The translations under genes were made by a program, and so were the position numbers. The notes under the pieces were generated by a model that saw nothing but the letters and a program-made list of their open reading frames with translations, ran no database searches and had not been told where the DNA came from. DNA of 43,957 nt from a virus: IMG/VR virus record IMGVR_UViG_3300022220_000008, positions 1 through 43,957 of that record; one strand, given 5' to 3'. Shown piece by piece: positions 14,713-29,295 of the stretch; the stretch's first letter is position 1; every line of letters starts with the position of its first letter.

Positions 14713-14961
14713 ATGGCCACCCCCCGCAAAGGCTCCGCACGCTGGACCGAGGAGAAGCTGCGCACCATGGCAGAGGCTGTCGAGCGTGGCAGCATGGGAG
14801 CGGTAAATGCCAAGGTCGCGGCGGATCTGTATCGGGCAGCGTACCATCAGCGGATCTCGCGGGCGCAGCAGAAGCGGGCCGGGACGATGGTCGAGGACTT
14901 CCTTGACGATGACGAGATGGTTCCAGGTTTGAAGCTGATCGAAGGCGAGAAGGTTGGGTGA
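14713..14961 (+). CDS. Small basic helical protein before TerL1, 82 aa
   Basis: The N-terminus is basic (ATPRKGSARWTEEKLRTMAE), followed by a helical stretch (AKVAADLYRAAYHQRISRAQ) and an acidic tail (EDFLDDDEMVPGLKLIEG). It overlaps the TerL1 start by four bases (GTGA). Position and size would fit a small terminase partner or packaging accessory factor for TerL1, but no TerS signature is visible, so this is inference only. Confidence 0.55.
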   Translation: MATPRKGSARWTEEKLRTMAEAVERGSMGAVNAKVAADLYRAAYHQRISRAQQKRAGTMVEDFLDDDEMVPGLKLIEGEKVG

Positions 14962-16364
14962 CAGGCTCGATCCTAACCGCCACCCGTGAGTTCCTGCACG
15001 GCGCTCAGCCGAAGATCATCCTACCCGACAACATCCGTGAGTTAACGGGCTTCCAACCGAACGCGTTGCAGGCGGAATTGCTCGCGATCAAGGCGCGGTT
15101 CCAGGTCCATTTCGTCCACCGCCGCGGCGGCAAGAGCTATGGCTATCTGCACCACATGGCCGAGCGCTTGATCGAATGCCCGTTCAAGAAGCCGCGCGGC
15201 ATGTTCACGGCCCAGGCGCTGGACCAGGCTATCGATATCGCGTGGGAGTACCTGCTGGAGATCGCCGAGGCGATACCTGGGGCGTACCCGTACAAGCGCG
15301 ATTACTCGATCTTTCTGCCGACCAGGATCGGATCAGAGGCCAAGATCAAGCTGAAGGGCACTGAGAAGCTGGGCGATCACGCCCGCGGCAAGTACCTCGA
15401 TTTCGTGGTGCAGGACGAGGGCGCGTTCGACCCGCCGGGCTATTGGCGCTCCAACATTCGGCCGATGCTGGCGGACCAGACGCGCCGCGGATTCGACCGG
15501 CACGGCTACCCTAACCAGACATCGGTTCGGATCTCGACGATCAACGGTCGGACCCACATGTGGCGGGCGCACCGCGAGGCTGTGGCGTGGATGGAAGGCC
15601 GCTCGGTGATCAAGCGGGACGCCAAGACCGGGCGCGAGCGCGAGATCACCCGCAAGGGATGGGCCGGCATTTTACGCACGGTCCACGACACCGGATTGAT
15701 CGATGAGGAAGAGATCGAGGAGCTTCAGGCAGATCTGACGCCGAGCGAGTTTCAGCGCGAGTTTCTGCTTGATCCTGACGCCATGGTCGAGGGCGCAATC
15801 TACGCCGACGAGCTCGCCCGGCTGCGCAAGCACGGCATGATCACAACGGTGGCCTACAACCCGGACTATCCGGTCAATAGCTGTTGGGATATCGGCTGGA
15901 ATGACAAGGCAGGTTGGTTCTTCCAGCTGATCGGGCCGACCGTGAACTGGTTGCGCTACAGCCACTGGCGCAAGAAGCGCTGGCACCGGGTACTGAGCGA
16001 CATGCACCAATGGAATTGGAAGTGGGGCAAGCACATCTTCCCGCCCGACGCCAAGCATCACAGCAACGACGGCCAGCAATGCCAAGCGACCTTGCGCGGG
16101 CTCGGGATGTCGATGACGGAGGCGCCCAGGATCTCCAAGCAAGATGCGTGCGAGACGATCGTGCCTAAGATCATCCTGCGCTCGAAATACGACGAGGGTC
16201 ATTGCGCAGACGGGATCGACGCCTTGGCGCTCTATCAGGTGACCTATGACGAGGAAACGGACCTGTGGAGCGATGACACGTCTAAGTCGTGGACCAAACA
16301 CCCATGCGACGCAAAACGCTACGGCTGTTGCTGGATTGACCGCACGTTGAACGGCCATGCCTGA
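14958..16364 (+). CDS. Terminase large subunit-like ATPase-nuclease (TerL1), 468 aa
   Basis: The ATPase half shows Walker A VHRRGGKS at 53-60 and Walker B plus catalytic carboxylate FVVQDE at 149-154, followed by NIRPMLADQTRRG. The nuclease half is RNase H-like with the three expected acidic positions: D311 (SCWDIGWND), D364 (FPPDAKHH) and D451 (HPCDAKRYG, the HxxDA end motif). All key residues are present and the length is normal, so it looks active. The start is GTG at 14958, overlapping the upstream gene. It is distinct from the second large terminase at 27940 and is not next to the portal gene. Confidence 0.88.
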   Translation: MTGSILTATREFLHGAQPKIILPDNIRELTGFQPNALQAELLAIKARFQVHFVHRRGGKSYGYLHHMAERLIECPFKKPRGMFTAQALDQAIDIAWEYLLEIAEAIPGAYPYKRDYSIFLPTRIGSEAKIKLKGTEKLGDHARGKYLDFVVQDEGAFDPPGYWRSNIRPMLADQTRRGFDRHGYPNQTSVRISTINGRTHMWRAHREAVAWMEGRSVIKRDAKTGREREITRKGWAGILRTVHDTGLIDEEEIEELQADLTPSEFQREFLLDPDAMVEGAIYADELARLRKHGMITTVAYNPDYPVNSCWDIGWNDKAGWFFQLIGPTVNWLRYSHWRKKRWHRVLSDMHQWNWKWGKHIFPPDAKHHSNDGQQCQATLRGLGMSMTEAPRISKQDACETIVPKIILRSKYDEGHCADGIDALALYQVTYDEETDLWSDDTSKSWTKHPCDAKRYGCCWIDRTLNGHA

Positions 16365-16780
16365 TGTTCGGCTGGCTGTTCGGTGGCGGAAAGCGCAAGC
16401 GCCGCGCGAAAGATCCGGGCTGGAACCACACCAACGCCTTCAACTTCGCAAAGCCGTCGAGGGCGCCTCGACGGGGCACCGGTCTCGACAAGTGCCGGGC
16501 GAAGGTCAAGCGCTTGGAAGCGATCATCAAGCAGAAGAACAACGAGATCATGCAGCTCAAGCGGATCAACAAGGCTCAGCAGCCGATGAAGGATGATGTC
16601 GTAAATGAGGGCACCTATGCCTACTACCAGGCGGGCCTCAAGCGCATCATGGCGCTGCTCAACTCGCGCGGAGACTGGGCTGATGTGATGGTCCCTGGCA
16701 TCCGACGCGAGGTTAACGGGATGCTCGGAACCAACATCGAGTGGGATGCCAAGCGACGGCGTGGTGTGAGGCGGCGATGA
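16364..16780 (+). CDS. Basic coiled-coil protein, 138 aa
   Basis: A very basic start (GGGKRKRRAKDPGW) leads into a coiled coil (LDKCRAKVKRLEAIIKQKNN then EIMQLKRINKAQ), and the end is again basic (WDAKRRRGVRRR). These ends suggest nucleic acid binding. It starts at the TerL1 stop and ends in an ATGA overlap, so it is coupled to TerL1. No family is recognised; a packaging or DNA-binding accessory is plausible. Confidence 0.65.
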   Translation: MFGWLFGGGKRKRRAKDPGWNHTNAFNFAKPSRAPRRGTGLDKCRAKVKRLEAIIKQKNNEIMQLKRINKAQQPMKDDVVNEGTYAYYQAGLKRIMALLNSRGDWADVMVPGIRREVNGMLGTNIEWDAKRRRGVRRR

Positions 16781-16977
16781 GCAAGGAGGAAGCATTCAAA
16801 GAGCTAACAGCGATCACGGTCCTGCTGTGGGAGCTGGTCGATAGACAGGCCAAGGATGAAGGCATTTGGTTCTTAGCCGAGACCGTGACCGAGGCGTACC
16901 TACAGCAGGAGCTTCGCAAGCTTCATGATGTCGTCGAGCGGCAAGCTGTCGCCTTTGGCAAGGCCATGGATAAATGA
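16777..16977 (+). CDS. Hypothetical helical protein, 66 aa
   Basis: The ATG at 16777 overlaps the previous stop (ATGA). The sequence is a continuous set of amphipathic helices (EEAFKELTAITVLLWELVDR, AYLQQELRKLHDVVERQAVA). It is soluble, unrecognised, and coupled through ATGA to the HNH gene. Confidence 0.6.
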   Translation: MSKEEAFKELTAITVLLWELVDRQAKDEGIWFLAETVTEAYLQQELRKLHDVVERQAVAFGKAMDK

Positions 16978-17357
16978 GCCTGGAGAGCGCCGCATTCCTC
17001 GCCTCGGTCGTGCTCTTGGCGCTCTGGCACGTGGGAGCCATAGGATGGCTCTGGAGGCGCTTCGTTCTTCGTCCGGTCACATCGGTATGGAAACGCCCCA
17101 CATCGTCGCCTGAGCGGCCTGCTGTGCCGAATGGGCTGCGCTTCTCGATCTTCCAGAGGGACAAATTCAGGTGTGTCTATTGTGGGCGCCGAGTCCGCGA
17201 TGGTGCGGAGCTCGACGCCAAGCGTCTCGATCACTTCGTGCCCTGGCGGATCACCAAGAAGCACGAGGCGAAAAACTTCGTAACCGCTTGTAGACAATGC
17301 AATTCTGGTAAGGGCGGTCGAGTTCTGGATCAGCCGATCGAGGATTTCGTGCGCTAG
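16974..17357 (+). CDS. HNH endonuclease with N-terminal membrane segment, 127 aa
   Basis: Residues about 6-24 (AAFLASVVLLALWHVGAIGW) are hydrophobic, followed by a basic linker. The HNH domain follows: FRCVYCGRRV (first CxxC), LDHFVPWRI (the H and nearby acid), NFVTACRQCNSGKGG (N, second CxxC). It is a compact zinc-supported nuclease. HNH genes next to terminases are known to help cos-type DNA cleavage in some phages (HK97 gp74 family); here it closes a TerL1-led set of genes. The membrane-like N-terminus is unusual for that family. Confidence 0.8.
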   Translation: MSLESAAFLASVVLLALWHVGAIGWLWRRFVLRPVTSVWKRPTSSPERPAVPNGLRFSIFQRDKFRCVYCGRRVRDGAELDAKRLDHFVPWRITKKHEAKNFVTACRQCNSGKGGRVLDQPIEDFVR

Positions 17358-17512
17358 GTCAGAGACGAGATCCACGCCTTCAGATCGTCCATGGCGAAGA
17401 TCAGCAAGGCAATGACGACGACCGGAGCGAAGAGCGCATCGATCGTGCGCACGGTTAGAGGCGCCCAGGTGTGATGCCTGCGCAGCCAAGGGCTAAAGCG
17501 GTGAATCTTCAT
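17354..17512 (-). CDS. Short membrane protein, 52 aa
   Basis: ATG 17512-17510 overlaps the upstream stop as ATGA. The sequence is basic first (MKIHRFSPWLRRHHTWAPL) and then has one membrane helix (IDALFAPVVVIALLIFAM), so the N-terminus should lie inside. It converges with the HNH gene, the two stops overlapping by three bases. It is the last gene of a leftward three-gene cassette headed by an RHH protein. Confidence 0.5.
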   Translation of the reverse strand: MKIHRFSPWLRRHHTWAPLTVRTIDALFAPVVVIALLIFAMDDLKAWISSLT

Positions 17513-17646
17513 TGGTTGGCTTCCTCTGGTGTAGGGCTAAGTGATGTCACGGCGTTTATGGCGTTCTTGGCCTTGATCATGGCGATATGCCATTTTTCGG
17601 ATTTCATCTCTCGCATGTACGTCCAAGTGCCCTTCCCTACCGTCAA
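17509..17646 (-). CDS. Small hypothetical protein, 35-45 aa
   Basis: This frame (motif KSEKWHIAMIKAKNAINAVT) ends in an ATGA overlap with the next gene, which argues for it. The start is uncertain: TTG at 17646 gives 45 residues and ATG at 17616 gives 35. A competing frame in the same DNA, starting at an ATG that overlaps the RHH stop, would encode an arginine-rich 45-residue product. Confidence 0.35.
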   Translation of the reverse strand: MTVGKGTWTYMREMKSEKWHIAMIKAKNAINAVTSLSPTPEEANQ

Positions 17647-17674
17647 GCCGATCTAGACTTGACCTCAATCTCAT

Positions 17675-18016
17675 TCAGCTTTTCAGGATCATTTGAGTGC
17701 GGTGGTAACCAAGCTCACGAGCCAGCACATCAGCCACCGCCTCGACGCGACTAGTCGCTACACCATCGGCCTGCTCCTTCAGCCAAGCGTCGTTGGCCTC
17801 GATCACATCCTCAGCCAGATCTCTCAGATCCTCCGATCTCGGCACCATCTCGCCATTCGCCCACATCTCCAGGACATGGACGAGCAGCGCGTTGCGCGTC
17901 GGCTTAGGGCTCATGCGCGATTGGATATCGTTGATCTTCACAGCCAAAGCATCGGGCACGTAGACGTGCCAATCCTTGTGGCCTGGTGTGACCGTCCATT
18001 TCGGTTGCTTCAACAT
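17675..18016 (-). CDS. Ribbon-helix-helix-like regulator, 113 aa
   Basis: DWHVYVPDALAVKINDIQSR followed by TRNALLVHVLEMWANGE gives the strand, helix A, helix B pattern of an RHH DNA-binding domain at residues about 14-55. An acidic helical extension follows (EDLRDLAEDVIEANDAWLKE). I chose ATG 18016-18014; an upstream frame to 18061 runs through the operator. It heads the leftward cassette and lies next to a palindromic hub, so it probably represses its own and the opposing promoter. Confidence 0.68.
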   Translation of the reverse strand: MLKQPKWTVTPGHKDWHVYVPDALAVKINDIQSRMSPKPTRNALLVHVLEMWANGEMVPRSEDLRDLAEDVIEANDAWLKEQADGVATSRVEAVADVLARELGYHRTQMILKS

Positions 18017-18032
18017 CACGTGTCCTTTTTGG

Positions 18033-18075
18033 GTTGACAAAGGACATCCTATATAGGACACTCGTGTTTGTCAAC
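18033..18075. promoter_or_regulatory. Second face-to-face promoter hub with nested palindromes
   Basis: GTTGACAAA (18033-18041) and TTTGTCAAC (18067-18075) are perfect inverted arms, each with a -35-like TTGACA pointing inward. The centre contains the perfect palindrome TCCTATATAGGA (18047-18058) and the direct repeat AGGACA. Leftward, TTGACA is followed after 17 bases by TAGGAT (18051-18046), a good promoter for the RHH cassette. Rightward, the -10 (GACACT at 18057-18062) is poor. The design matches the hub at 2085-2125. Confidence 0.6.
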
Positions 18076-18090
18076 ACCAGGAGATACCCA

Positions 18091-18186
18091 ATGCAGCCCG
18101 ACGAGCAGATAGGTCTGGATCAAGCGGTGCCGTGGGCGGTCAATTGCGAGCATGACGGCGCCGAGATGCGCCCGGTGGAGAGGTGA
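18091..18186 (+). CDS. Very small protein, 31 aa
   Basis: The ATG has a strong ribosome site (CAGGAGATACCCA). The product is acidic with a few hydrophobics (QPDEQIGLDQAVPWAVNC). It is the first gene after the 18033 hub and is followed after one base by the next start. It could be a leader peptide or a small inhibitor; no family is recognised. Confidence 0.4.
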   Translation: MQPDEQIGLDQAVPWAVNCEHDGAEMRPVER

Positions 18187-18187
18187 G

Positions 18188-18586
18188 ATGGATCACATGA
18201 GATATACCGAGATCATCGAGGAACTGTCTGATTACGACCCGTCAGTCAAAGCTGCGCGTGTTGGATCGACCGTCACCATCGGTGAGATCGTCGAGATGGC
18301 CAAGGCCGCCGACACGATCGAACGGATTCAGAGCGAATGCACCTTTTGGCATGAAAAGTGGCGGCGCGATTGGCGAGCGCTTAACGAGGCCCGCGCCGAG
18401 GTCGAGCGGTTGAAGGCTGAAGCGCCACCAGATCATCGTTTCCAACTGCAATGCCCTATCTGCAAAACAGTCACCTATCATGAGGATTTAGGGCCATGGG
18501 TCTTCATCTTCGGCGTCATCGTCGGCACACTAGCCAAGACCGCCGGGCAGGGCTCGCAGGATGTCGGCGAGTTCGTTGCGGAGTAG
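18188..18586 (+). CDS. Hypothetical protein with coiled coil and Cys pair, 132 aa
   Basis: The ATG at 18188 follows GGAGAGGTGAG. The middle forms a coiled coil (WRALNEARAEVERLKAEA), then QCPICKTVTYHEDLG looks like half a zinc site, and a weakly hydrophobic end follows (WVFIFGVIVGTLAKTAG). It may associate with the membrane. No family is recognised. Confidence 0.6.
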   Translation: MDHMRYTEIIEELSDYDPSVKAARVGSTVTIGEIVEMAKAADTIERIQSECTFWHEKWRRDWRALNEARAEVERLKAEAPPDHRFQLQCPICKTVTYHEDLGPWVFIFGVIVGTLAKTAGQGSQDVGEFVAE

Positions 18587-18591
18587 GGATC

Positions 18592-18864
18592 ATGATCGTT
18601 TCAGGTTTTCTGTTCGTATTGGGCGTGGTGCTGTGCATCTGGTGCCTGGTCAATCTCGACGTGGTGATCGGCCTGATCTGGCTGGCATTCCTCGGGATCA
18701 TCATTCTGGCGATCGGTGCCGCGCTTTGGCTCGGTGCTAGCTGGGTAGTCCTGCAACTCGACCCGTCGCTGGCCGGCGAGGAGATAGCAAGTTACGGCTT
18801 CTTAGGCGCGGCTGCGCTCGTGTGGCTTGGGCTTCATTGGATCGGCAAGGGAGATGAGTCATGA
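18592..18864 (+). CDS. Polytopic small membrane protein, 90 aa
   Basis: The ATG at 18592 gives a protein that is almost entirely hydrophobic, with three likely membrane helices (IVSGFLFVLGVVLCIWCLVN, VVIGLIWLAFLGIIILAIGA, and YGFLGAAALVWLGLHWIG). Size and topology would suit a holin-like or exclusion protein, but it is far from the right-end membrane cluster. The upstream in-frame extension is arginine-rich and unlikely. It overlaps the next gene by ATGA. Confidence 0.6.
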   Translation: MIVSGFLFVLGVVLCIWCLVNLDVVIGLIWLAFLGIIILAIGAALWLGASWVVLQLDPSLAGEEIASYGFLGAAALVWLGLHWIGKGDES

Positions 18865-19115
18865 CCGACAAGCCCAAGACACCCGCAAAATATGGCGAAC
18901 CGCTCAAGGTGTTGAGTGACCAGGAAGCGATGAGGGCTTGCACACCAGAGGAGCTAGCCGAGAACGCACGCCGGCAGTACGAGCATCATCAAGCCTACAT
19001 GGCTGACCCTGCGCGGGAAGAGCGGCTGCTTGCTCACATGCTGAGGCGTGAGGCCGAGGTCGATGCCATTCTCTACCCGCCTCGGCGTGGGCTCATGAAG
19101 TGGCTGTTCGGATGA
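18861..19115 (+). CDS. Hypothetical protein, 84 aa
   Basis: It overlaps its neighbours by ATGA at both ends. The sequence is charged and helical (CTPEELAENARRQYEHHQAY, EERLLAHMLRREAEVDAILY) and ends with a short hydrophobic-basic tail (PRRGLMKWLFG) that could touch the membrane. No family is recognised. Confidence 0.6.
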   Translation: MTDKPKTPAKYGEPLKVLSDQEAMRACTPEELAENARRQYEHHQAYMADPAREERLLAHMLRREAEVDAILYPPRRGLMKWLFG

Positions 19116-19312
19116 CCGAGATCCCGGACACCCCAAAATCATGGCGCGTGGTTGCATGGGAGCTTGAGGATAAACTGTCCGAGTTCAAACGCTTCCGCGC
19201 CGATCCTAACTTAGGAATGCAACACGAGTTGCCCATGTTGGCTGACCTCGCGGAGAAGACGGCCGAGGTTGTTCAAAGGATTGTTGTGGCATTGATGGAG
19301 TTGGATCGATGA
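19112..19312 (+). CDS. Hypothetical helical protein, 66 aa
   Basis: The ATG at 19112 overlaps the previous stop. The sequence contains WRVVAWELEDKLSEFKRFRA and LADLAEKTAEVVQRIVVALM, two amphipathic helices typical of a small coiled-coil dimer. It is soluble and unrecognised. Confidence 0.6.
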   Translation: MTEIPDTPKSWRVVAWELEDKLSEFKRFRADPNLGMQHELPMLADLAEKTAEVVQRIVVALMELDR

Positions 19313-19557
19313 CCGAGAGCAAAGGCGAGGCGATTAGGCTTCCCCCGGCCCTAGGCGAGCCAGAACCTTTCCCATCGATGGGCGACGCCGGCTTGATGAT
19401 CAGCGTGCGAGAGATAGAAAACCGATACCTGGCAAGAGAGCGCCACAAGCGTCTGCTGAGGGTGCCACAGTCCTATGTCAGGCGGAATGTTCCATGGACG
19501 CTTTGGGAAAAGCTTGTGGGGTTGTGGAAAGGGACTTACGACCCCTATTTGCCCTAG
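19309..19557 (+). CDS. Hypothetical protein, 82 aa
   Basis: It is the last gene of the small-gene run, starting in an ATGA overlap. It is proline-rich at first (RLPPALGEPEPFPSMGDAGL), then basic and helical (IENRYLARERHKRLLRVPQS). No family is recognised. The gap after it holds the inverted repeat upstream of terS. Confidence 0.6.
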   Translation: MTESKGEAIRLPPALGEPEPFPSMGDAGLMISVREIENRYLARERHKRLLRVPQSYVRRNVPWTLWEKLVGLWKGTYDPYLP

Positions 19558-19559
19558 CA

Positions 19560-19605
19560 TCAACAACCAGTTAACATGGCCGCGGTGTACAAAAGGGGTT
19601 GTTGA
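19560..19605 (+). promoter_or_regulatory. Inverted repeat over the terS ribosome site
   Basis: TCAACAACC (19560-19568) and GGTTGTTGA (19597-19605) are perfect nine-base arms. The right arm overlaps AAAAGGGG, the likely ribosome site of the gene at 19610, so RNA pairing could hide it. As DNA it could be a binding site for the small terminase or a repressor. No convincing promoter boxes are visible here. Confidence 0.45.
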
Positions 19606-19609
19606 AACA

Positions 19610-20005
19610 ATGGCTGGAGCCCCAAAGGGCAACAAGAACGCTGAGAAGCACGGCTTCTATGCCGATGTGCTGACGCCTGAAGAGACACAGCTCTATGACG
19701 CCGCGCAATATGCCACGCTAGGCGATGAGGTTGCGGTCGGCAGAATCAAACTCAACCGGCTGCTCAAATACATGGCCGAAGGCAACGAGGTGGCAGAGGG
19801 CACGATCGGCCAAATGGATAGGATGCTCGGCCGGATCGGCGACCTCGAAGTCAAGCGCTCCATCATAGAGAGAAACCGCGCCGAGACAGGCCAGGGCGAC
19901 GATGGCGACTTCGAACGCCTCAAGGATCTAGCCGAGCGTACCAGCGTGCATAAAGTGACCTTCAAGCCGAATGGGCGGACCAATGGTAAATCCAACGGTA
20001 GCTGA
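19610..20005 (+). CDS. Terminase small subunit (TerS), 131 aa
   Basis: The N-terminus AGAPKGNKNAEKHGFYADVL followed by TPEETQLYDAA is the well-known start of one phage small-terminase family that recognises packaging sites in DNA. The middle (LGDEVAVGRIKLNRLLKYMA) and RIGDLEVKRSIIERNRAE fit its helical oligomerisation region. The ATG at 19610 is preferred over the longer open frame because the family signature begins there. It opens the late block. Which of the two large terminases it partners is not evident from position: TerL1 ends 3.2 kb upstream, TerL2 starts 7.9 kb downstream. Confidence 0.75.
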   Translation: MAGAPKGNKNAEKHGFYADVLTPEETQLYDAAQYATLGDEVAVGRIKLNRLLKYMAEGNEVAEGTIGQMDRMLGRIGDLEVKRSIIERNRAETGQGDDGDFERLKDLAERTSVHKVTFKPNGRTNGKSNGS

Positions 20006-20192
20006 GGGCGAACGAGCTTGGCGCCTTGTCCATGCGGTTAAAGATGAGTTGATGGATCGAGGCCTGAATCTTTCGACCGCCACAAAAGCGCAGCGCGATG
20101 CTGCTCTGGCTAAGGTGGGAGATAAGTTCATCACCGAGTTCGAGATGGCGGGGGATCTGGACAACGGGAAAGCCAAGAATGGCTCCGGTTAA
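19983..20192 (+). CDS. Hypothetical helical protein, 69 aa
   Basis: It overlaps the end of terS and the start of the tail-hub gene. ATG 19983 or 19971 is possible. The sequence (EGERAWRLVHAVKDELMDRG then TATKAQRDAALAKVGDKFIT) is helical and soluble. The coupled position suggests a late role, but no family is recognised. Confidence 0.5.
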   Translation: MVNPTVAEGERAWRLVHAVKDELMDRGLNLSTATKAQRDAALAKVGDKFITEFEMAGDLDNGKAKNGSG

Positions 20193-21690
20193 TCTAACCC
20201 TTCCCCTGACCGCCTGGCGCCCGGACGGCAGTGGCTTTCGTTCTGGCCATCTCAAGGTTGCCCGTGGATGCATAAGGGCCGGGGGCATTCCACCTTTCAT
20301 CCCAGCCCGCAAGCTGGTCAGCGTCACCGATTCGGTGCTGCCGGGCTTCGAGGGCGTCGACGCGCTGTTAGTTGGTGACGACACCAGCGCCGATCAGTCA
20401 TACCGCACCTATGCCGGCACCAAGAGTGCGATCTACGAGGCGACAGGCACGCCTCTGATATGGGCCGACGTGTCCAAGGCTGGTGGCTACACCGTGCCGG
20501 CTGAGGGGCGCTGGCGCACCACCCAGTTCGGCGGCGATCTGTTCGCAACCAACTTCAACGACCCGATCCAGTTCGTGAATGTGGCCGCTGGTGGCCTATG
20601 GGCCGACACAGGCGCGGCGAACATCCCCAAGGCGCGCTATATGGACGTGGTGCGCTCTGATTTCGTCTTCCTTGGCAACATCGACGATCCGGTCGACGGC
20701 ATCGTGTCGAACCGCATCCAGTGGGGGCCGTTTAGAGACCCGTTCGGCGATTGGAGCGACATCGCCACGCAAGCCGACAGGACCGACATACCGGACCTCG
20801 GCGAATGCACCGGCGTGACCGGTGGCGAGTGGGGCACGGCTCTGTTTCGCAATGGGATCGTGCGCTTCACTTACACACCAGGCGGCGCGGAGTTCTTTCA
20901 GGCGGACACCATCAGCCGCCAGATTGGTTGCGACTTCCCAGCGAGCGTGATCCGGGTCGGCAACATCACCTATTTCCGCTCTAGGGCTGGATGGCATCTG
21001 TTCGACGGCTCACAGGTCCAGGACATTGGCAGCGAGTGGACCGACCAGTGGACACAGGATGAGCTGCGTAGCGGGCAGGAGTTCCGCATTCAGCCGGGCT
21101 GGGATCGCGACGAAGAGGTGATCCGCTGGTTGTTCGTCGGCGAGGGCAGCCAGGGCGATGTGCCAAACCGGTGTTTGATCCTCAAGCCCGACCTCGGCAA
21201 GCAAGGCTGGTCATATCAGGATGTTGACGCCTACGTGCTAGGGCAGTTCGTTGCGCCCGGCACCAACCTGGATCTTGACCCATACCCGACGTTGGATGCC
21301 GACCTCCCACCGCTTGATGATCCGTTCTGGCAGAGCGGCAACCCGACCGCAGGCGCGATCAACACCCTCGGCGAGGCCGCGACGTTCAAGGGCACGCCGG
21401 ATGATGCCGAATGGACCTGGCCAGAGGGCATGGTGTCGGATGCAGCCCAGCGGGTGCAGTTGCTCGCAGGACTACCGATCACCGAGGGCGGATCGCCCGT
21501 GCTCAACATCGCAACCCGCAACGTGCTGAATGAGCCGCTGGTTGCCGGCACTGACGTATCACCGCAAGACAACGGTGACGTGGCGCTTAGGACCAATGCG
21601 CGCTATCAAACGATCACACTCAAGCAGTCCGGCGACTGGGAGTCAGCGACCGGGTTGCAGCTGAGTGGTGTGACGACGGGGGCTAGGTGA
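20179..21690 (+). CDS. P22 gp10-like packaged-DNA stabilisation/tail hub protein, 503 aa
   Basis: The start at ATG 20179 gives MAPVNLTLPLTAW. Repeated blade-like units are visible: RYMDVVRSDFVFLGN, then IQWGPFRDPFGDW (the IQW-DP-DW pattern typical of gp10-type proteins), ITYFRSRAGWHLFDGSQVQD, and FRIQPGWDRDEEVIRWLFVG. The family forms the hexameric, propeller-like hub that plugs the portal after packaging. The C-terminal part has an aspartate/proline-rich strand region. It is placed after terS and before the ejection genes. Confidence 0.78.
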   Translation: MAPVNLTLPLTAWRPDGSGFRSGHLKVARGCIRAGGIPPFIPARKLVSVTDSVLPGFEGVDALLVGDDTSADQSYRTYAGTKSAIYEATGTPLIWADVSKAGGYTVPAEGRWRTTQFGGDLFATNFNDPIQFVNVAAGGLWADTGAANIPKARYMDVVRSDFVFLGNIDDPVDGIVSNRIQWGPFRDPFGDWSDIATQADRTDIPDLGECTGVTGGEWGTALFRNGIVRFTYTPGGAEFFQADTISRQIGCDFPASVIRVGNITYFRSRAGWHLFDGSQVQDIGSEWTDQWTQDELRSGQEFRIQPGWDRDEEVIRWLFVGEGSQGDVPNRCLILKPDLGKQGWSYQDVDAYVLGQFVAPGTNLDLDPYPTLDADLPPLDDPFWQSGNPTAGAINTLGEAATFKGTPDDAEWTWPEGMVSDAAQRVQLLAGLPITEGGSPVLNIATRNVLNEPLVAGTDVSPQDNGDVALRTNARYQTITLKQSGDWESATGLQLSGVTTGAR

Positions 21691-22043
21691 TGCTGATCGA
21701 CGGGATGGAGTATGCAGAAGCTGGCTCGGGCATAAAGCCAGTCATCCGTTGCCCGAAGTGCGAGCAGCCGTATTTTGTGACCGGAGAGGAAGGTCGCAGG
21801 GAAAAGGCGGAATGCCCTGAGCATGGCATCTTTGAAAAGATGGTTGGGGGCCAGGTAGATCCGCAGTCATTCGTTGATGAGGAAGGGGTCACTCACAAGC
21901 TGAGCCCGCTGCGGTTTGAGCCTGGCGATGTTAGGGTCCGTCAGGAAAGCCCAACGTCTGGCATTGGACGGCTTGAGGTTCGCATTGACCGCCTCGAAGC
22001 GCTGGTCAAGCGCATTGCGACGCATTTGGGGATTGATGAATGA
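21690..22043 (+). CDS. Zinc-ribbon-like protein with coiled-coil end, 117 aa
   Basis: The ATG at 21690 overlaps the hub gene stop. RCPKCEQPYFV then AECPEHGIFEK gives a CxxC plus C-x2-H metal site near residues 20-45. The C-terminus is a coiled coil (GRLEVRIDRLEALVKRIATH). It may be a virion-associated or assembly protein given its place between hub and needle-like genes. No named family. Confidence 0.6.
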   Translation: MLIDGMEYAEAGSGIKPVIRCPKCEQPYFVTGEEGRREKAECPEHGIFEKMVGGQVDPQSFVDEEGVTHKLSPLRFEPGDVRVRQESPTSGIGRLEVRIDRLEALVKRIATHLGIDE

Positions 22044-22240
22044 AAACAGCGATCAAGGAAGGCGTCAAAGAGGGCGTCGATGCAGCGCGCATGTCGACGA
22101 TGATGCGTGAGCTCGTGGACAAGATTGGCGCGGACCCTGGAGCGCTGTTGGCTCGGGTCGAGGCGTTGGAGGCGGCGCGAATTGAGCATGAAGCCCGAAT
22201 AGCCTCCCTGGAAACGTGGCACCCGAATCCGCGACCATAA
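22040..22240 (+). CDS. Small coiled-coil protein, 66 aa
   Basis: It overlaps the preceding gene by ATGA. After a helical start (KEGVKEGVDAARMSTMMREL) it forms a heptad-rich coil (LLARVEALEAARIEHEARIA). It resembles the coil at the end of the preceding protein. The function is unknown; a structural or chaperone role fits the location. Confidence 0.6.
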   Translation: MKTAIKEGVKEGVDAARMSTMMRELVDKIGADPGALLARVEALEAARIEHEARIASLETWHPNPRP

Positions 22241-22879
22241 ATGCCCGGCTTCGAGTTCCTCCGCTTCGCCGCCACCGGCCCGCGTGACGCCCGCGAGACC
22301 GCCCAGAAGTGCAACAACATGGGCGAGGCTGCGGCGAGGGCCATGGCGGCACTTGCGGCGCGGGTCGATGTTCTAGAGGCACTGATGCCGCAGGCGCAGG
22401 TAAGCGCTCAGGGCGCCATGACCAAGACGATCAGCTCGGCGCCTGATCCCGATATCGATGGGATTTTCAGGCCGATCACGTTCTACGACACGATCAACAT
22501 GGCGGTGCGCGGATGTACGTTGAACACGACCAACGGCCGGTTCACCTTCGAGGTCGAGGGCAAGTGGCTGGCCCTGTTTTCGTTCAACACCCTGGTCACT
22601 GGGACTGGCGCATCGCGCTCCACCAGCCTGCGAGTGTTCAATGTCACGGATCTAGCCGCTGGCCCGACAAATGGTATCGCGGTTCCAGGGCAATCGGACG
22701 CCATCACAGCCACGAAATTCCTGCCCATCACGGTTACTGCCGCAGACGTCGGGCCTCCAGCCAAAGAGTTTGTGATGGAGATTGGCGGCGGTGACACATT
22801 CACGGGCGTTGAATGGGAAACGCTCAACCTCGGCCTGTTCTACCAAGACCGGTTCGGATCGCTGGTTGATCCGTTCTAG
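22241..22879 (+). CDS. Virion protein with coiled coil and jelly-roll-like C-terminus, 212 aa
   Basis: Residues about 25-50 form a short coil (AAARAMAALAARVDVLEALM). The rest is all-beta with the rhythm of a C1q/TNF-like trimeric jelly roll: NGRFTFEVEGKWLALFSFN, then SRSTSLRVFNVTD, PITVTAADVGPPAKEFVMEI, TFTGVEWETLNLGLFY. A trimeric knob after a coiled coil, directly behind a gp10-like hub, suggests a tail-needle tip or head decoration (Sf6 needle knobs have such a fold). This is inference from pattern and position. Confidence 0.55.
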   Translation: MPGFEFLRFAATGPRDARETAQKCNNMGEAAARAMAALAARVDVLEALMPQAQVSAQGAMTKTISSAPDPDIDGIFRPITFYDTINMAVRGCTLNTTNGRFTFEVEGKWLALFSFNTLVTGTGASRSTSLRVFNVTDLAAGPTNGIAVPGQSDAITATKFLPITVTAADVGPPAKEFVMEIGGGDTFTGVEWETLNLGLFYQDRFGSLVDPF

Positions 22880-22887
22880 CGGCTAAT

Positions 22888-22935
22888 TTGCCAACAGCAT
22901 AAGATCCCCTTATAACACTGTGTAGATTAGGGGAT
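22888..22935 (+). promoter_or_regulatory. Late promoter for the ejection genes, with operator-like repeat
   Basis: TTGCCA (22888-22893), 17 bases, TATAAC (22911-22916) is a good sigma70-type promoter. Inverted arms ATCCCCT (22904-22910) and AGGGGAT (22929-22935) flank the -10 box and the expected start, so a regulator could block it. The gene at 22944 has part of the right arm (AGGGGAT) as its ribosome site. Confidence 0.7.
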
Positions 22936-22943
22936 TTCGGCTT

Positions 22944-24026
22944 ATGGCTCTCTTCGGCGGCGTCAACGTCGACCGCTCACCCGGCACACAGCTTGGCCGC
23001 AACGTCCTCTCCGATGCACAGCGAGCGACGAGGCGAACGGCGCCGATCCCGGTAGCGGGTTTTTCGCCATTCCAACAGCAGGCTTTCGACATCATCGGCC
23101 AGCAGGGCGTCAATCCTGCTGTATCAGCTGCGCAGGGGTTTCTTCCAGGATTGGCCGGCGGCGAGTTCATCGGCGCGGGGCCTGGTCAATCCACCCTGCA
23201 ACAGGCGGCCAGCGGTGGGTTCCAGAACCTCGCTCTGCCAGAAGCCCAGTCGGCGCTGGACTTCAGTCGAGGTTTCGGAATCCCCGCCGGCTTGCAGGCG
23301 ACAGCCGCTGGTGAGAATTTATCCGCGCCGTTCCTGAGTGGCGAGTTCGCTCGGCTAGTCGAGCCTGGTGTCCAGCAATTCCGCAACATCCAGTTCCCCG
23401 GACTACAGGGCCAGTTTGGCGCGAGCGGGCTTCGTGGCACCAACCGCCAGGAGTTCCTAGAGGGGCAACTCCAGGACCAAGCCGACCGGTTCTTGCAAGG
23501 CACCGCTGCCGATCTCATCGGGCGCGAGCGCGGCTTTCAGCAGCAAGCGCAATTGGCAATTCCGGGTCTGCAACAGCAACAGCTAGGGGGCCAGCTCAGT
23601 GCGATCGGACAACTTGGCGGTCTATCGTCAGACGACCTCGCCAGACGCTTGGGTGCGGCTGGTGCGCTACAAAGCGATTTTGGACGGGATGTTGCCCAAG
23701 CCGGTCAAGCAGGTTTTGGCGCACCCGGATTTGCAACGGGAGCCTTGGGAAGCCAGGTCAACCCCTTGCTCGCCGCAGGAGGACAACAGCAAGCCTTAGA
23801 GCAGGCGAGGAATGCCGCTCGGGACGAGGCGATACAGCGCGAGGTGCAACGCGCGGGCATATTGTCCGGCGTGCCACAGTTTGCCGGAACTGGAGGCGAT
23901 AGTGGAGGCGGCACGGGGCAGATCTTGGGCACTCTTGCTGGCACTGGTCTAGGTGCGTTTTTCGGCGGTCCGCTCGGGGCAGGGTTTGGCGCGCAGATCG
24001 GCGGCGGCTTGGGGAGCTTGTTCTAA
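22944..24026 (+). CDS. Ejection/internal virion protein candidate 1, 360 aa
   Basis: The protein is rich in G, A and Q with long helices (GLRGTNRQEFLEGQLQDQAD, GFQQQAQLAIPGLQQQQ). It ends in a glycine-rich hydrophobic stretch (LAGTGLGAFFGGPLGAGFGA) able to insert in or cross a membrane. It is one of three successive genes of this style, as in the gp7-gp20-gp16 ejection set of P22-like phages. The role, forming the DNA transit channel after adsorption, is inferred from order and composition. Confidence 0.7.
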   Translation: MALFGGVNVDRSPGTQLGRNVLSDAQRATRRTAPIPVAGFSPFQQQAFDIIGQQGVNPAVSAAQGFLPGLAGGEFIGAGPGQSTLQQAASGGFQNLALPEAQSALDFSRGFGIPAGLQATAAGENLSAPFLSGEFARLVEPGVQQFRNIQFPGLQGQFGASGLRGTNRQEFLEGQLQDQADRFLQGTAADLIGRERGFQQQAQLAIPGLQQQQLGGQLSAIGQLGGLSSDDLARRLGAAGALQSDFGRDVAQAGQAGFGAPGFATGALGSQVNPLLAAGGQQQALEQARNAARDEAIQREVQRAGILSGVPQFAGTGGDSGGGTGQILGTLAGTGLGAFFGGPLGAGFGAQIGGGLGSLF

Positions 24027-25174
24027 TGGCCAATGGCCCAACGCAGTTAACCCCGTTTTTCGGCGGTGGTGCCCAACGTGCGCCATTCCGCATTCCGACC
24101 AATGTTTTAGGCTTGCCTGGGCTGGATGACCCACGATCGGCTGGGGCGTTGCAAGGGTTCTCCCAAGGGTTCTTGCGTGGCGATCAGACATTCGCAGATG
24201 CTCTGACCCGTGGCATCGCTGGCGGCTTTGGCGGCTTTGCGGCTGGCGAGCAATTCCGGCAACAGCAAGCTCAAGAGCAAGCGGCGGCTCAGGCCGCGGC
24301 GCAACAGCAGGAGATCGAGAACCGGCGGGCACAAGCCGAAGCCCAGCGCAAGGCGGCGGCTGATGCCGAGAGGGTGCGGCAGTTTGGTGTGACAGAGGGC
24401 AGATTGCTGACCAAGGACCAGCGCGAGGCGCAGGATCTGGCGTTCAAGCAGAACAACGCATTGCAAAAGCTGCAACTCGATCGAGCGAAGCTGGCCATTG
24501 ATCAAGCCAACAGCGTGCCGGACAAGCTTCGTGTCTTGCAGGCGATGGGGCTAGATCCGTCCTCCGGCGAGGGACGGCAGCTTCTTTCGGATTCACTCAC
24601 CAAATCGGCGATCACGATCAATCAGCCGAAGCTATCGCCGGGGCAAATCCCGATCGATCCGAACGATTTGAGCAAGGGCACTGTGGCGGCAAAGGATATC
24701 GGGCAAGCGCGCGTTATAGCGGACAACATTAGGTCGCAACTTGGTCGCTATAGGGAGGCTTTGACCCAGTTTGGTGCTGAAACTTTGCCAGGGCCTGCCA
24801 AGGATAGGTTGAGGGGCACGCGCACACAGCTTTTGCTGGAACTCAAGACGCTAAACGAGCTAGGCGCGCTCACTGGCCCGGACTTGGATTTGATGGATGA
24901 TCTTTTGATTGATCCGACATCAGTTCCTTCTCGGGTGGGCAATGCGTTTAGCGCTCTTGCCGGCAACTCACTAGGTGAGCGTGCGCTACAGAGCATCGAT
25001 TTAGTCGAGCAAACCGTAAATGACCGGTTGAATGCGATCACTGGGCAGGTTGGAGCGCCTGCTGTGCCTCAGGCTGCGCCAGTTGCACCGCAAGCAGTCT
25101 CGCCCGCTGATCTAGGCTCGCTTAGCATTGAACAGCTTCAGGCCTTGGAGGCGCAGCTTGGCAGTAACCCTTGA
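24026..25174 (+). CDS. Ejection/internal virion protein candidate 2, 382 aa
   Basis: After a glycine-rich start (ALTRGIAGGFGGFAAGEQFR) comes an extreme glutamine/alanine coiled coil (QQQAQEQAAAQAAAQQQEIE) and a helical body (LKTLNELGALTGPDLDLMDD). The C-terminal tail (APAVPQAAPVAPQAVSPADL) is proline/alanine-rich. It overlaps its neighbours on both sides. It fits the middle member of a P22-like ejection trio; length and low complexity agree with that group. Confidence 0.7.
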   Translation: MANGPTQLTPFFGGGAQRAPFRIPTNVLGLPGLDDPRSAGALQGFSQGFLRGDQTFADALTRGIAGGFGGFAAGEQFRQQQAQEQAAAQAAAQQQEIENRRAQAEAQRKAAADAERVRQFGVTEGRLLTKDQREAQDLAFKQNNALQKLQLDRAKLAIDQANSVPDKLRVLQAMGLDPSSGEGRQLLSDSLTKSAITINQPKLSPGQIPIDPNDLSKGTVAAKDIGQARVIADNIRSQLGRYREALTQFGAETLPGPAKDRLRGTRTQLLLELKTLNELGALTGPDLDLMDDLLIDPTSVPSRVGNAFSALAGNSLGERALQSIDLVEQTVNDRLNAITGQVGAPAVPQAAPVAPQAVSPADLGSLSIEQLQALEAQLGSNP

Positions 25175-27038
25175 GGATGTGAGAGCGGAACTAGGACGCC
25201 GGCAGCAGCCCCCCTCTGGTCAAGGCGTGACGCTTGAAGCCGTTCAATCCGAATTGGCGCGAAGGCAAGCGAGCGATGTTGTTGATCGAGCTGAGGAAAG
25301 GCGCTCACCTACGCTTGCGTCATTCGTGCCAGGTCTTCGGTTGGTTCAAGACATCCAAGACATAGCCGAGCAAGGCTTCGAGCGGACCGAGCAGTTTCCC
25401 TTTTTCAGGCTGCCAAGCTCTGTAGGCGAACGGGCCGAGCGTGAGCAGCGGGCACAACAGGCGATCGCTGGCTTTGCGGCGCCTGCTGCTGGTGCTTTGG
25501 CTGGAGTTGCGCGCGCCGCTGCTGGTGGTGCTGGTATTCTTGGCCGTGCTGGCGCTTCTGCGCTTGGTACGGGCGCTGGAGATATAGCTGCGCAGTTCGC
25601 GACAAAGGGCGAAGTTGACCCGGTTCAAGCTGGCATTTCCACGGGTCTTGGTGCGGTAGGCCAGCCGGTGGGAGAGGCGCTTGCGGCTGGTGTGAGCGGT
25701 GTCCGCGCGCTTGGCTCCGAGCTTCTAGCCAGCCGGATTCCGTCCTTTGCCAGGAACCGGGCGCAACAGGCCGTGACGCAGGCTTTAGCGCGTGGTGGAC
25801 AGACGCCGAGAGAGGCAGGGCAGGCCATCCGAGGGCTTCAGCAAACGGGCGCCCCGGCGAGGCTGGCGGATGTTGGCGGTGAACCGGTGCAGGCGCTGAC
25901 CGAGCGTGTGGCCAAATCGCCATCAAGAGGCGCTGATCTGTTGAGGGATGCTTTCGACAACCGCCAGAAACTGCAATTGCGCAGGCTATCGGCTCAGCTC
26001 AGGCTACGAAGCGGCACGAAGGTACGCGATATCGAGGATGCAGTGCTGGAATCCCAGGCATCGCGGGCCGCAGCCTCGGCGCCCTTGTATGATGAGGCAT
26101 TCTCGGCACCGGTCCCCCAGTCATTGGGCGATGATTTCGCCGATCTGACCAAGACAGGATTTGGCAAGCAAGCGGCGCAGCGCGCACGCAAGACGCTACA
26201 GACCGAATTCAACGTTGATGATGTGTCTGAAGTCCCGGTGTTGAACCGCATTGACGCCACCAAGCGCGAGTTAGACGACATGATCGGGGCGGCTCGCCGA
26301 GCTGGCGAGAATAACCGGGCTCGATTGCTCACAGACGTGAAGAACAAGATGGTTCGGGCTGCTGATGATGCTGTGCCTGCCTATGCTGCTGCGCGCAATG
26401 CATGGGCGGGCCCCGCAGCATGGCAAGATGCGGTCGAGAATGGACTTAGCATCACAAAGGCCGAGATGACGCCCGCCAAACTACGTCAGTTGTGGGCTGG
26501 CTTCACGGAATCGGAGAAGCAAGGCTATCGGATTGGTGCGGTGCAGCGTCTTGTCGATCAGATGGGCGAGCAGGCGGCGGATTTGCCCAATCTGACCAAG
26601 CTTTTGGGCAAGCAGAACCTGCTCGATAAGTTCAAGATCATCATGCCTGGCGGCAAGGGTGAGATTTTCGAGCAGGCTATCAAGGCAGAGCGTCAATTGG
26701 CCGAAACTGGCATCCGGGCTCGTGGTGGCTCGCGCACTGCCGGCTTGCAAGCGACCGATGAGGCATTATCGCGTGAGGATACGGTCATTGACGCCATGGC
26801 GGACTTATTTCAGGGCGATTTCCGAGGCGCTTTATCCCGGACGCTGCGTCTTCCAACTCGGCTCAAGGCGAAAATCCAGGAAAAGCGGAACGAAGAGATT
26901 GCGCGCATTCTGCTCTCGCAAGATCCGACTGCCGCACTCAAGCCACAAGCCGGAGCGCCGGTTGCGCAACCACTTGGCCCGACTGCCGGCGTCCCGACTA
27001 CAGCAGGCTTGCTCGGCATTCAGGATTTAGCCCAATGA
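25158..27038 (+). CDS. Ejection/internal virion protein candidate 3, 626 aa
   Basis: TTG at 25158 is preferred because GGAGG lies just upstream; TTG at 25128 is possible. The N-terminus holds a short tandem repeat (VTLEDVRAELGRRQ and VTLEAVQSELARRQ). A small-residue membrane-active region follows (AAPAAGALAGVARAAAGGAG, IGTA-like helices), then a long helical body (RKTLQTEFNVDDVSEVPVLN and onward). It is the largest of the trio, as gp16-like proteins often are. No lytic transglycosylase motif is visible. Confidence 0.7.
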   Translation: MAVTLEDVRAELGRRQQPPSGQGVTLEAVQSELARRQASDVVDRAEERRSPTLASFVPGLRLVQDIQDIAEQGFERTEQFPFFRLPSSVGERAEREQRAQQAIAGFAAPAAGALAGVARAAAGGAGILGRAGASALGTGAGDIAAQFATKGEVDPVQAGISTGLGAVGQPVGEALAAGVSGVRALGSELLASRIPSFARNRAQQAVTQALARGGQTPREAGQAIRGLQQTGAPARLADVGGEPVQALTERVAKSPSRGADLLRDAFDNRQKLQLRRLSAQLRLRSGTKVRDIEDAVLESQASRAAASAPLYDEAFSAPVPQSLGDDFADLTKTGFGKQAAQRARKTLQTEFNVDDVSEVPVLNRIDATKRELDDMIGAARRAGENNRARLLTDVKNKMVRAADDAVPAYAAARNAWAGPAAWQDAVENGLSITKAEMTPAKLRQLWAGFTESEKQGYRIGAVQRLVDQMGEQAADLPNLTKLLGKQNLLDKFKIIMPGGKGEIFEQAIKAERQLAETGIRARGGSRTAGLQATDEALSREDTVIDAMADLFQGDFRGALSRTLRLPTRLKAKIQEKRNEEIARILLSQDPTAALKPQAGAPVAQPLGPTAGVPTTAGLLGIQDLAQ

Positions 27039-27796
27039 CCATCGTCCTTCCCTACCCAACGCCCCAAGGCAATAACCTTGCCGACAATGACGGGGGCAAC
27101 GGCGTCAACTCGCCGCCTCAAGGCGCCCCAGAGGGGAACGCGACATCGACCGTCAATGATATCCAACGGTACGATAAAACCTGCATCAAGCAGAACGTGG
27201 AGAACATCGACGCCATCAACCAGGCGCTGGGCACGATGGCGGAACAGGATGCCAGCGCGGTTGCGATCACGGGTGGATCGATCTCAGTCCAAGTGGACTC
27301 GGCTGTCAATTCTGACCAGCTCGGCGGCCTGACGCTGCAACAGCTGTACGATCTTACCTATCCGGTGAACGAGGCCATTGTCATCCGAAACATCGAGACG
27401 CCGCCGCCGACGTGGCCCGGCACGGCCTCGACATGGACGTTGACTGCGCAGGGGCTGTTTCTCAAGCCGATCATCACGGGCCAGCCGGTTGGCGAGACCT
27501 TTGCCGGCGTGACAGAGACGGACGAGACTATTCTGACTGAAGCTCAAATCCCGCCGCATGAGCATGTGATGTTCACGGCTGAAACTGTTTCTTCTGGAGT
27601 TGCCCCAGGCCCGACCGATCGCGTAGCCACGGGGCTAAATGTTGGCGGCGATTCTGAGTATTTCATGGCACGCGGAAACCTGCCAACCCCAGCCAGAGGC
27701 GCGACTAGCAGCATCGGCGGCGGCACGGGTCACACCCACACGTTCGACGACTCCCCGCCATTCCAGCGGGTCGCGGCCTATCTGAGGACGGCATGA
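27035..27796 (+). CDS. Tail fibre/collar-like protein, 253 aa
   Basis: The N-terminal half is a repetitive, partly coiled region (NVENIDAINQALGTMAEQDA). The C-terminal half has the histidine signatures of phage collar and short-fibre tips: QIPPHEHVMF and GGTGHTHTFDDSPPFQRVAA, where paired histidines bind metal in trimers. It likely forms a receptor-binding or collar trimer at the tail. It starts in an ATGA overlap with the ejection gene. Confidence 0.7.
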   Translation: MTIVLPYPTPQGNNLADNDGGNGVNSPPQGAPEGNATSTVNDIQRYDKTCIKQNVENIDAINQALGTMAEQDASAVAITGGSISVQVDSAVNSDQLGGLTLQQLYDLTYPVNEAIVIRNIETPPPTWPGTASTWTLTAQGLFLKPIITGQPVGETFAGVTETDETILTEAQIPPHEHVMFTAETVSSGVAPGPTDRVATGLNVGGDSEYFMARGNLPTPARGATSSIGGGTGHTHTFDDSPPFQRVAAYLRTA

Positions 27797-27828
27797 CCTA
27801 CCAGCGCAAGGAGGAGATGGCGCTGTGA
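27793..27828 (+). CDS. 11-residue leader-like reading frame
   Basis: MTYQRKEEMAL overlaps both neighbours (ATGA and GTGA). Its codons contain AAGGAGGAG, the ribosome site for the gene at 27825. It may exist only to couple translation, or not be expressed as a peptide. Confidence 0.3.
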   Translation: MTYQRKEEMAL

Positions 27829-27947
27829 GGCTGGCCAAGTACATCACCAAATCGGAGGTGGAGGCCTACGAGGCCAAGGGCTGGAACGTGGTGCGGCTGG
27901 ACGCCCATCATTACCGCTACTATCTGGCGTGGCGCGAAGATGACTGA
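27825..27947 (+). CDS. Small protein before TerL2, 40 aa
   Basis: GTG at 27825 has AAGGAGGAG at ideal spacing. The product (RLAKYITKSEVEAYEAKGWN then VVRLDAHHYRYYLAWRE) has a strand-helix pattern common in tiny phage proteins encoded next to terminases. It overlaps the TerL2 start by eight bases. The function is unknown. Confidence 0.6.
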   Translation: MRLAKYITKSEVEAYEAKGWNVVRLDAHHYRYYLAWREDD

Positions 27948-29295
27948 ATACCTCTGGAACAAGCGCGCCTATTTGCTGGACTATCACCCGGTTCAAGACC
28001 AGCTGATGAACACGCCAGCGCGCTTTGTGACGGTCCCGGCCGGGCGGCGCAGCGGCAAGACCGAGTGCGCCAAGCGCTATCTGGGCGGCAAGGCGATGGA
28101 AGGGACCGACTTCAATCCGAGCCGGTTCTTCTTCGGCGCCCCGACCCGCCAACAGGCAAAGGATATTTTCTGGGCGGACATGCTCGCCTATCTGCCGAAG
28201 CAGCTCATCATCGACGCGAACATTTCCGAGCTCAGGATCAGGATCAAGAACTTCCAGCGCGGTGAAAGCCACATCTACGTGCACGGGCTCGACAAGCCGG
28301 AGCGGATAGAGGGCAGCCCTTGGGATGGTTGCGTGATCGATGAGATTGCCAATTGCCACGCGCGGGCGTGGCCGCTCCACATCCGGCCATCACTGAGCAC
28401 GCCAGGGCGCTTTGGCTGGGCGTGGCTGATCGGCGTACCGGAGGGGCGTAATCACTACTACGACATGCACCAGGCGGCGCTCAGGGACACCACGGGCGAA
28501 TGGGCGGGCTATTGGTGGCCATCTGAGGACATCCTACCGGAGTCCGAGATCGAGGCGGCCAAGCGCGACCTGGACGAGCAGAGCTATGAACAGGAGTATC
28601 GCGGCTCGTTCGTCACGTTCGCTGGCCAGTGCTATTACAACTACCGGGCGGAACGGCATGAAGCAGAGCTCGATTACGATGCTGAGCGACCCCTCATCCT
28701 GGCCTTTGACTTCAACGTCGAACCTGGCGTTGCTTGTGTGGGTCAAGAGATGGCCCTACCAAACGGCGAGTTTGGGACTGGATGGCTTGGTGAAGTCTAC
28801 ATCCCCCGAAACAGCAACACGCCCGCCGTCTGCCGTAAGATCGTCCAGGACTGGGGCGAGCACAAAGGAGACGTGAGATGCTATGGCGATGCTACGGGTG
28901 GAGCCAGGCGGACGAGCGGCGAGTTTGGCAACGACTGGCAGCTGGTTGAACGGGAGCTGCGCTCGACATTCGGCACCCGCCTTACGTTTCACGTGAAATC
29001 GTACAACCCGAGCGAGCGATCACGGGTGAACGCGGTCAATTCTCGGCTGTTTACGGCAGACGAGACGGTTCACATGATGGTGGACCCGGCTAAATGCCCG
29101 CATTTGATCAGGGATTTCGAGGGCGTGCTGCTCCTGGAGGGCGGCTCAGGCGAGATCGACAAGCGATCGAACAAGGAACTGACTCACATCAGCGATGCGG
29201 CTGGCTACTACGTCGCAGAGTGTTTCCCGGTATCGAGGCGGATCACCGGACACATCCCATCGGCGGACATCGAGGCGGCGATCCATGCTGCGTAG
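27940..29295 (+). CDS. Terminase large subunit (TerL2), 451 aa
   Basis: The ATPase half has Walker A PAGRRSGKT at 33-41, HGLDKPERIEGSPWDG before Walker B CVIDE at 131-135, then HIRPSLSTPGRFGWAWLIG and VPEGRNHYY (coupling motif). The nuclease half shows D257 (LAFDFNVEPG), D317 (YGDATGGARR) and D419 (HISDAAGYY). All expected residues are intact. It drives DNA into the capsid through the portal and cuts the concatemer. Its location two genes before the portal is canonical, so I take this as the cognate packaging motor. It shares only the general TerL motifs with TerL1. Confidence 0.93.
   Translation: MTEYLWNKRAYLLDYHPVQDQLMNTPARFVTVPAGRRSGKTECAKRYLGGKAMEGTDFNPSRFFFGAPTRQQAKDIFWADMLAYLPKQLIIDANISELRIRIKNFQRGESHIYVHGLDKPERIEGSPWDGCVIDEIANCHARAWPLHIRPSLSTPGRFGWAWLIGVPEGRNHYYDMHQAALRDTTGEWAGYWWPSEDILPESEIEAAKRDLDEQSYEQEYRGSFVTFAGQCYYNYRAERHEAELDYDAERPLILAFDFNVEPGVACVGQEMALPNGEFGTGWLGEVYIPRNSNTPAVCRKIVQDWGEHKGDVRCYGDATGGARRTSGEFGNDWQLVERELRSTFGTRLTFHVKSYNPSERSRVNAVNSRLFTADETVHMMVDPAKCPHLIRDFEGVLLLEGGSGEIDKRSNKELTHISDAAGYYVAECFPVSRRITGHIPSADIEAAIHAA

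Follow-up and report, generated by a model that had tools for sequence, protein, structure and literature searches.

Two terminase large subunits of different families

The stretch of DNA analysed here (the window) is the whole of IMG/VR virus record IMGVR_UViG_3300022220_000008, a metagenome-derived sequence of 43,957 bases that carries two complete and dissimilar genes for a terminase large subunit (TerL), TerL1 at 14958..16364 (+) and TerL2 at 27940..29295 (+). Tailed phages are taken to have one packaging motor, and TerL serves as the marker gene from which phage phylogeny and mode of packaging are read. A preliminary description of this DNA had reported the pair with Walker A, Walker B with catalytic acid, and three nuclease acids intact in both, and we located every one of these. 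The TerL1 open reading frame (ORF) is uninterrupted from a GTG start, with ATPase motifs HRRGGKS (Walker A, residues 54-60) and D153-E154 (Walker B and catalytic acid) and nuclease acids D311, D364, and D451, plus H448 and R454. The TerL2 ORF is uninterrupted from an ATG start and has Walker A AGRRSGKT (residues 34-41), D134-E135, and nuclease acids D257, D317, and D407 or D419. Because both ORFs are full length, we rejected the idea of a single TerL split or frameshifted into two.

The two proteins belong to separate families, which we designated T1 (the type of Rhodoferax phage P26218, Pelagibacter phage HTVC010P, Ochrobactrum phage OH, Methylophilales phage Venkman, and Wolominvirus) and T2 (a large family of siphophage type). 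TerL1 scored 558 bits on the T1 profile vs 42 on the T2 profile, and TerL2 scored 128 and 744 bits, respectively; the alignment and tree that the preliminary description had called for placed TerL1 in T1 (support 77/84) and TerL2 in T2 (100/100). A column comparison of the nuclease domains across T1 and T2 was set aside, as the alignment between the families is unreliable there. The catalytic residues of TerL1 are invariant or nearly so across T1 (K59, D153, and E154 are invariant in the alignment). TerL2 matches Terminase_6N and phrog_2, its ATPase and nuclease motifs are present, it retains 118/128 (92%) of the family-invariant residues of T2, and its closest T2 members are siphophage records.

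TerL1 had no match in Pfam and only a weak, unnamed match in PHROG; a tblastn search nevertheless found the annotated TerLs of 240 phages, the best-covered matches being 24-31% identical with E-values down to 1e-34. It has the layout expected of a terminase, with an N-terminal additional strand catalytic glutamate (ASCE) ATPase and a C-terminal RNase H-like nuclease with three acids. Structure prediction, proposed earlier as a check of its fold, gave a confident AlphaFold2 (AF2) model (predicted local distance difference test (pLDDT) 87.5, predicted template modelling score 0.83) with the full motor and nuclease fold, matching the full-length TerLs of D6E (E-value 4e-19), T4 (gp17), Sf6, and HK97 as well as isolated TerL nuclease domains; the Avs3-TerL structure 8dgc was among the structure matches. 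Against plasmids there were weak ATPase-level matches only, none with 80% coverage. We also rejected TerL1 as a known defence protein, since it had no PADLOC match; matches to HNH, UvrD, and SNF2 entries in the PADLOC library are generic domain matches.

A TerL pair of this kind appears to be rare. With a profile sensitive to both T1 and T2 we counted exactly one TerL in 32/32 control records, in keeping with the earlier statement that one is normal for tailed phages. A second search of 26 records (one of them common to both sets) found two TerLs only in the window, one in 18, and none in 7, some of which carry a third TerL family; the pair was thus seen in no other record tested. Searches of IMG/VR for close kin with the portal, TerL1, TerL2, HNH nuclease, and 138-amino-acid (aa) protein as queries returned only contig L002, which has the TerL1 cluster described below, and L004, which has a member of the TerL2 family (56%), and no close kin were found in bacterial genomes.

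The record looks like one genome, because it has matching ends, one replication set, and one head and tail set. A 152-nt terminal repeat lies at 1..152 (no strand) and again at 43806-43957, the copies being 150/152 identical (2 mismatches), and for this reason the genome is probably complete at ~43.8 kb, a size near that of its relatives (phiM5, 44.0 kb; OH, 41.2 kb; L003, 41.2 kb). Helicase and primase-like genes lie at the left, and no duplicate of the replication genes was seen.

Head genes and their usual terminase partners

The window is the genome of a short-tailed phage with a single SU10-type set of head genes. These comprise the portal protein (29986..32232, +; PF23899, E-value 1.1e-135; phrog_1216), a 73-aa protein (32384..32605, +) with phmmer matches in the same slot between portal and scaffold at many related loci, the head scaffolding protein (32650..33756, +; phrog_3927, E-value 2.7e-22), the major capsid protein (33771..34766, +; phrog_1328, E-value 6.8e-66), and an SU10-type head-tail adaptor (35134..35769, +; PF24175, E-value 2.7e-14). 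Between TerL2 and the portal gene, an ORF of up to 269 aa (29195-30004) had no family match.

We surveyed loci of this head type, 80 of them from a capsid-protein scan and counted together with fetched phages, for the TerL directly upstream of the SU10-type portal. It was a T1 protein in 26 loci (some of these TerLs being cut by a contig end), a member of a third family in ~8, and a T2 protein in 0, and the SU10 portal was absent from 42 T2 records. For these reasons the TerL2 in the portal slot is foreign to the SU10-type portal, whose usual partner family is T1. The earlier statement that TerL2 precedes the portal gene as usual therefore holds for its position and fails for its family. The third family (Walker A SGHGVGK; phiM5/LUZ24 type) stands upstream of the same portal in L106, L129, L130, L148, L156, L160, L165, and phiM5 (L006), and thus terminase type varies within the SU10-type head family. 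We dropped the notion of T1 as the strict ancestral type of the lineage, since the third family also pairs with the portal and the portal tree places the window insecurely. At two further loci the portal-adjacent TerLs (L140:738-1997 and L167:2494-3714) are strongly diverged from T1, with a stem of 3.0 changes per site.

TerL2 also has a small terminase subunit (TerS) of matching type. The gene for this protein, TerS2, lies at 19610..20005 (+; its ORF opens at 19475) and matches phrog_1889 TerS (E-value 9e-10) and NF040601 TerS (E-value 4.6e-7, below the NF040601 cut-off). Among the fetched loci, its homologues stood directly upstream of a T2-family TerL in 10/10 cases. In the relatives the two genes are adjacent, whereas in the window 8 kb with virion genes lie between them. 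The preliminary description was right about the two TerLs but had missed TerS2 and the family identities.

The left-arm cluster and the divergence of TerL1

TerL1 belongs to a cluster that ends the plus-strand genes of the left arm, ~13 kb from the portal gene, and the earlier remark that it lies 13 kb away with coupled neighbours of its own was borne out. An 82-aa protein (14713..14961, +) precedes it, with a stop that overlaps the TerL1 start, and a 51% identical homologue precedes TerL1 in L002. This protein occupies the TerS slot of T1 loci, where genes of 67-157 aa stand; HHalign comparison with the TerS proteins of those loci was not significant (probabilities <1%), and its AF2 model is helical and of low confidence (pLDDT 62). 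We consider it a candidate TerS by position, being small and directly before TerL1, though without sequence similarity to the TerS proteins of T1 loci. Downstream, a 138-aa basic, coiled-coil protein (16364..16780, +) is coupled to TerL1 by a 1-nt overlap, as in L002, where its homologue is 77% identical over 127 aa with a ratio of nonsynonymous to synonymous change (dN/dS) of 0.27; our searches found no homologue other than that one. The last member is an HNH nuclease (16974..17357, +; PF01844, E-value 2.7e-9) with a hydrophobic N-terminal segment that its L002 homologue shares (83% over 127 aa, dN/dS 0.16), and this nuclease is probably membrane-anchored. When we compared it with packaging HNH nucleases (gp74-like), the HNH domain was clear; one gene lies between TerL1 and HNH, and the membrane segment is present.

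The cluster (82-aa protein, TerL1, 138-aa protein, and HNH) and its flanks are conserved on L002, an independent 4-kb contig. Upstream, the first conserved gene encodes a 215-aa membrane protein (13860..14507, +) with no family match; L002 has its homologue, 47% identical, at the corresponding position. Downstream, two minus-strand genes at 17354..18061 (-; 17354-17512 and 17675-18061) separate the left-arm from the late genes, and by eye L002 has matching ORFs. This synteny rules out a chimeric join within 13.5-18.0 kb, which the preliminary description had raised as a concern. Its suggestion of a satellite-like module found no support, as there is no second head set and no integrase was seen among the ORFs read (only part of the ORFs were searched); no boundary repeats were found around the cluster.

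TerL1 and its L002 homologue are 76% identical with a dN/dS of 0.19, alike in both domains and over about one synonymous change per site, and this ratio indicates that TerL1 is in use and under strong purifying selection. Its codon use resembles that of the portal and capsid genes, which suggests that it has long been settled in the lineage. We compared its divergence with that of the head proteins. Measured against the same relatives and at the same level of portal identity (24-28%), T1 TerLs apart from TerL1 are 39-44% identical and TerL1 is 25-28% identical; 19/19 TerL1 comparisons fell under the minimum of the other T1 TerLs, and a capsid yardstick agreed. By this measure TerL1 is diverged far beyond its head proteins. 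It retains 45/89 T1-invariant residues, all catalytic ones included, and four other outlying T1 members retain 79 to 88 of 93 to 95. Among the changes are ATPase motifs common to T1 and T2, namely APT to TAQ (84-86), IGTP to ISTI (192-195), and QEF..SF to REFLLDP (267-273). In the tree, TerL1 and L002 are nested in T1 beside L003, OspOH, and P26218 (support 86/93), and their stem measures 2.4 changes per site vs 0.5-0.9 for the sisters.

Elsewhere in the window we observed an SNF2-type helicase (2251-3879) whose N-terminus may include a DUF5710 segment and three homing-endonuclease-like genes (3863-4366, 4748-5353, and 9898-10209, the last apparently 5'-truncated) with the common motif SIDRID(N)NG.YAP.NCRWATR.EQ, the first two of which are connected by a 136-nt repeat (71%). 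A C-5 cytosine DNA methylase (11114-11827; PF00145, E-value 1e-31) probably protects against restriction. Consecutive tail-spike-like proteins at 39317-40762 and 40876-42261 are alike in build and ending (QS.NNGPGG.GA) and are apparently paralogues, and 36529-38019 may be a third. Promoter and terminator scans did no better than on shuffled sequence.

Interpretation and known systems

We give an even chance to a terminase swap in which TerS2 and TerL2 package the genome and TerL1 is a displaced T1 terminase kept as an ATP-driven nuclease in a different role. The packaging terminase of an SU10-type phage would have been replaced by a T2-type TerS2 and TerL2 of siphophage origin; a T2 terminase holds the packaging slot, and both of its proteins match siphophage-type loci. 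Given its family, its position, and its matching TerS, TerL2 would act with TerS2 as the packaging motor next to the portal. A T1-type TerL does persist in the left arm as TerL1, in its cluster with the 82-aa protein, the 138-aa protein, and HNH, and on this reading it would no longer package the genome, serving as an ATP-driven, DNA-translocating nuclease with HNH as a nicking partner, perhaps at the membrane. Its target might be phage concatemers (processing) or host or rival DNA (attack). More tentatively, and with a chance that we put appreciably short of even, TerL1 may have left packaging after the foreign takeover to become a dedicated nuclease that works with the membrane HNH and the basic partner on host, rival, or incoming-phage DNA. 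The divergence pattern of TerL1 favours reuse as a nuclease over a second packaging route. Phage DNA polymerases offer a documented case of a core enzyme being replaced (PMC11348598), which makes a swap plausible, and Avs immunity against TerL is one possible pressure toward it. The case is strongest where it concerns family assignment, the link of TerS2 to T2, and the divergence test, and weakest in the function proposed for TerL1.

Several observations weigh against a displaced TerL1. TerL1 could still package, as T1 is usual for this portal and the TerS slot is occupied by the 82-aa protein. It may have changed fast because the portal changed and TerL1 adapted, or it may stand for a deep lineage that is unsampled. 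The latter is possible because two T1-like members with other head types (RHph_I3_18 and ppBjS10J-1) also lose many invariant residues, retaining only 57 to 64 of 89. Moreover, the placement of TerL1 is moderately supported and on a long branch, and the cluster occurs in two sequences only, one of them the 4-kb fragment L002, in which the status of TerS2 and TerL2 is not visible.

It is conceivable, though unlikely, that the motor that really packages is TerL1, served by the 82-aa protein as small subunit, and that TerS2 and TerL2 are an acquired accessory. This would fit the family usual for the portal, the overlap of a small gene with the TerL1 start, which TerS genes of T1 loci show too, and the strong purifying selection. 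Against it, two minus-strand genes follow TerL1, the portal lies 13 kb away, only half of the family-invariant residues remain in TerL1, and the protein encoded just before it is unlike the TerS proteins of T1 loci, while TerL2 holds the portal slot, has a matching TerS, and retains 92% of its invariant residues. That both enzymes package, as a switch between modes or genome ends or as an escape from TerL-recognising defences, seems quite unlikely to us. Both are catalytically complete, the HNH gene neighbours TerL1 as terminase-adjacent HNH nucleases that act in packaging do in other phages (PMC5304195), and Avs defence proteins target TerL (PMC11348598; structure 8dgc); against this, there is a single portal and TerL1 diverged out of step with the head proteins. 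Dual packaging has no known precedent, and packaging HNH nucleases are not known to have a membrane segment like that of the HNH here.

Terminase types have been swapped within the SU10-type head family, and other core genes of phages are known to have been swapped as well (PMC11348598), so that TerL1 might be a functionless leftover of a terminase replacement, in transitional redundancy with TerL2. We judge this improbable, since a dN/dS of 0.19 over about one synonymous change per site is not decay and all catalytic residues and the neighbourhood have been kept. An assembly chimera of two phages has to be considered for a metagenome-derived record, the more so as L002 alone backs the TerL1 region and stops near 18.0 kb; with matching ends, a genome size as in relatives, a single head set, no duplicated replication set seen, similar GC content and codon use on both sides, and the TerL1 neighbourhood reproduced in L002, it is very improbable.

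Under the terminase swap, two complete TerLs of different families show a terminase replacement in an SU10-type phage, and TerL1 offers a naturally occurring candidate for a terminase with a possible second function; the window also breaks the one-TerL assumption used in classification. The T1 TerLs of short-tailed phages (Rhodoferax P26218, Pelagibacter HTVC010P, Ochrobactrum OH, and Methylophilales Venkman) are homologous to TerL1 over nearly its full length (E-values 1e-25 to 1e-34) with the same catalytic residues and fold, but each is a sole TerL beside the portal, whereas TerL1 is a second TerL 13 kb off, differs at half of the invariant residues, and has other neighbours. TerL2 and TerS2 match TerL/TerS pairs of siphophages (MW202621, 54%; Nipunavirus PaMx25 and Klebsiella 37P2, ~35%), in which TerS, TerL, and a different portal are adjacent, unlike the 8-kb gap and SU10 portal here. 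For phage DNA polymerases it has been described that a distant relative can replace the enzyme in place and that some genomes have a divergent second copy in addition to the main one (PMC11348598), the same pattern in a different enzyme, and the same source describes TerL as a target of bacterial Avs immunity. HNH nucleases next to terminases are known from GVE2 (PMC5304195) and from Kala et al. 2014 as cited there; the GVE2-type HNH lies downstream of the TerL gene, as here, though the window has an extra gene between and a conserved hydrophobic N-terminus. Two TerL genes per genome have been annotated in phiPDS1 (PMC10773633), vB_EfS_SE (PMC11510935), and the jumbo phages XaC1/XbC2 (PMC11273794). 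In the literature we searched, such reports were of split genes or tandem homologues only (a domain-split TerL, a homing endonuclease between large-subunit genes, or tandem homologues), whereas in the window both enzymes are complete, differ in family, and lie at separate loci.

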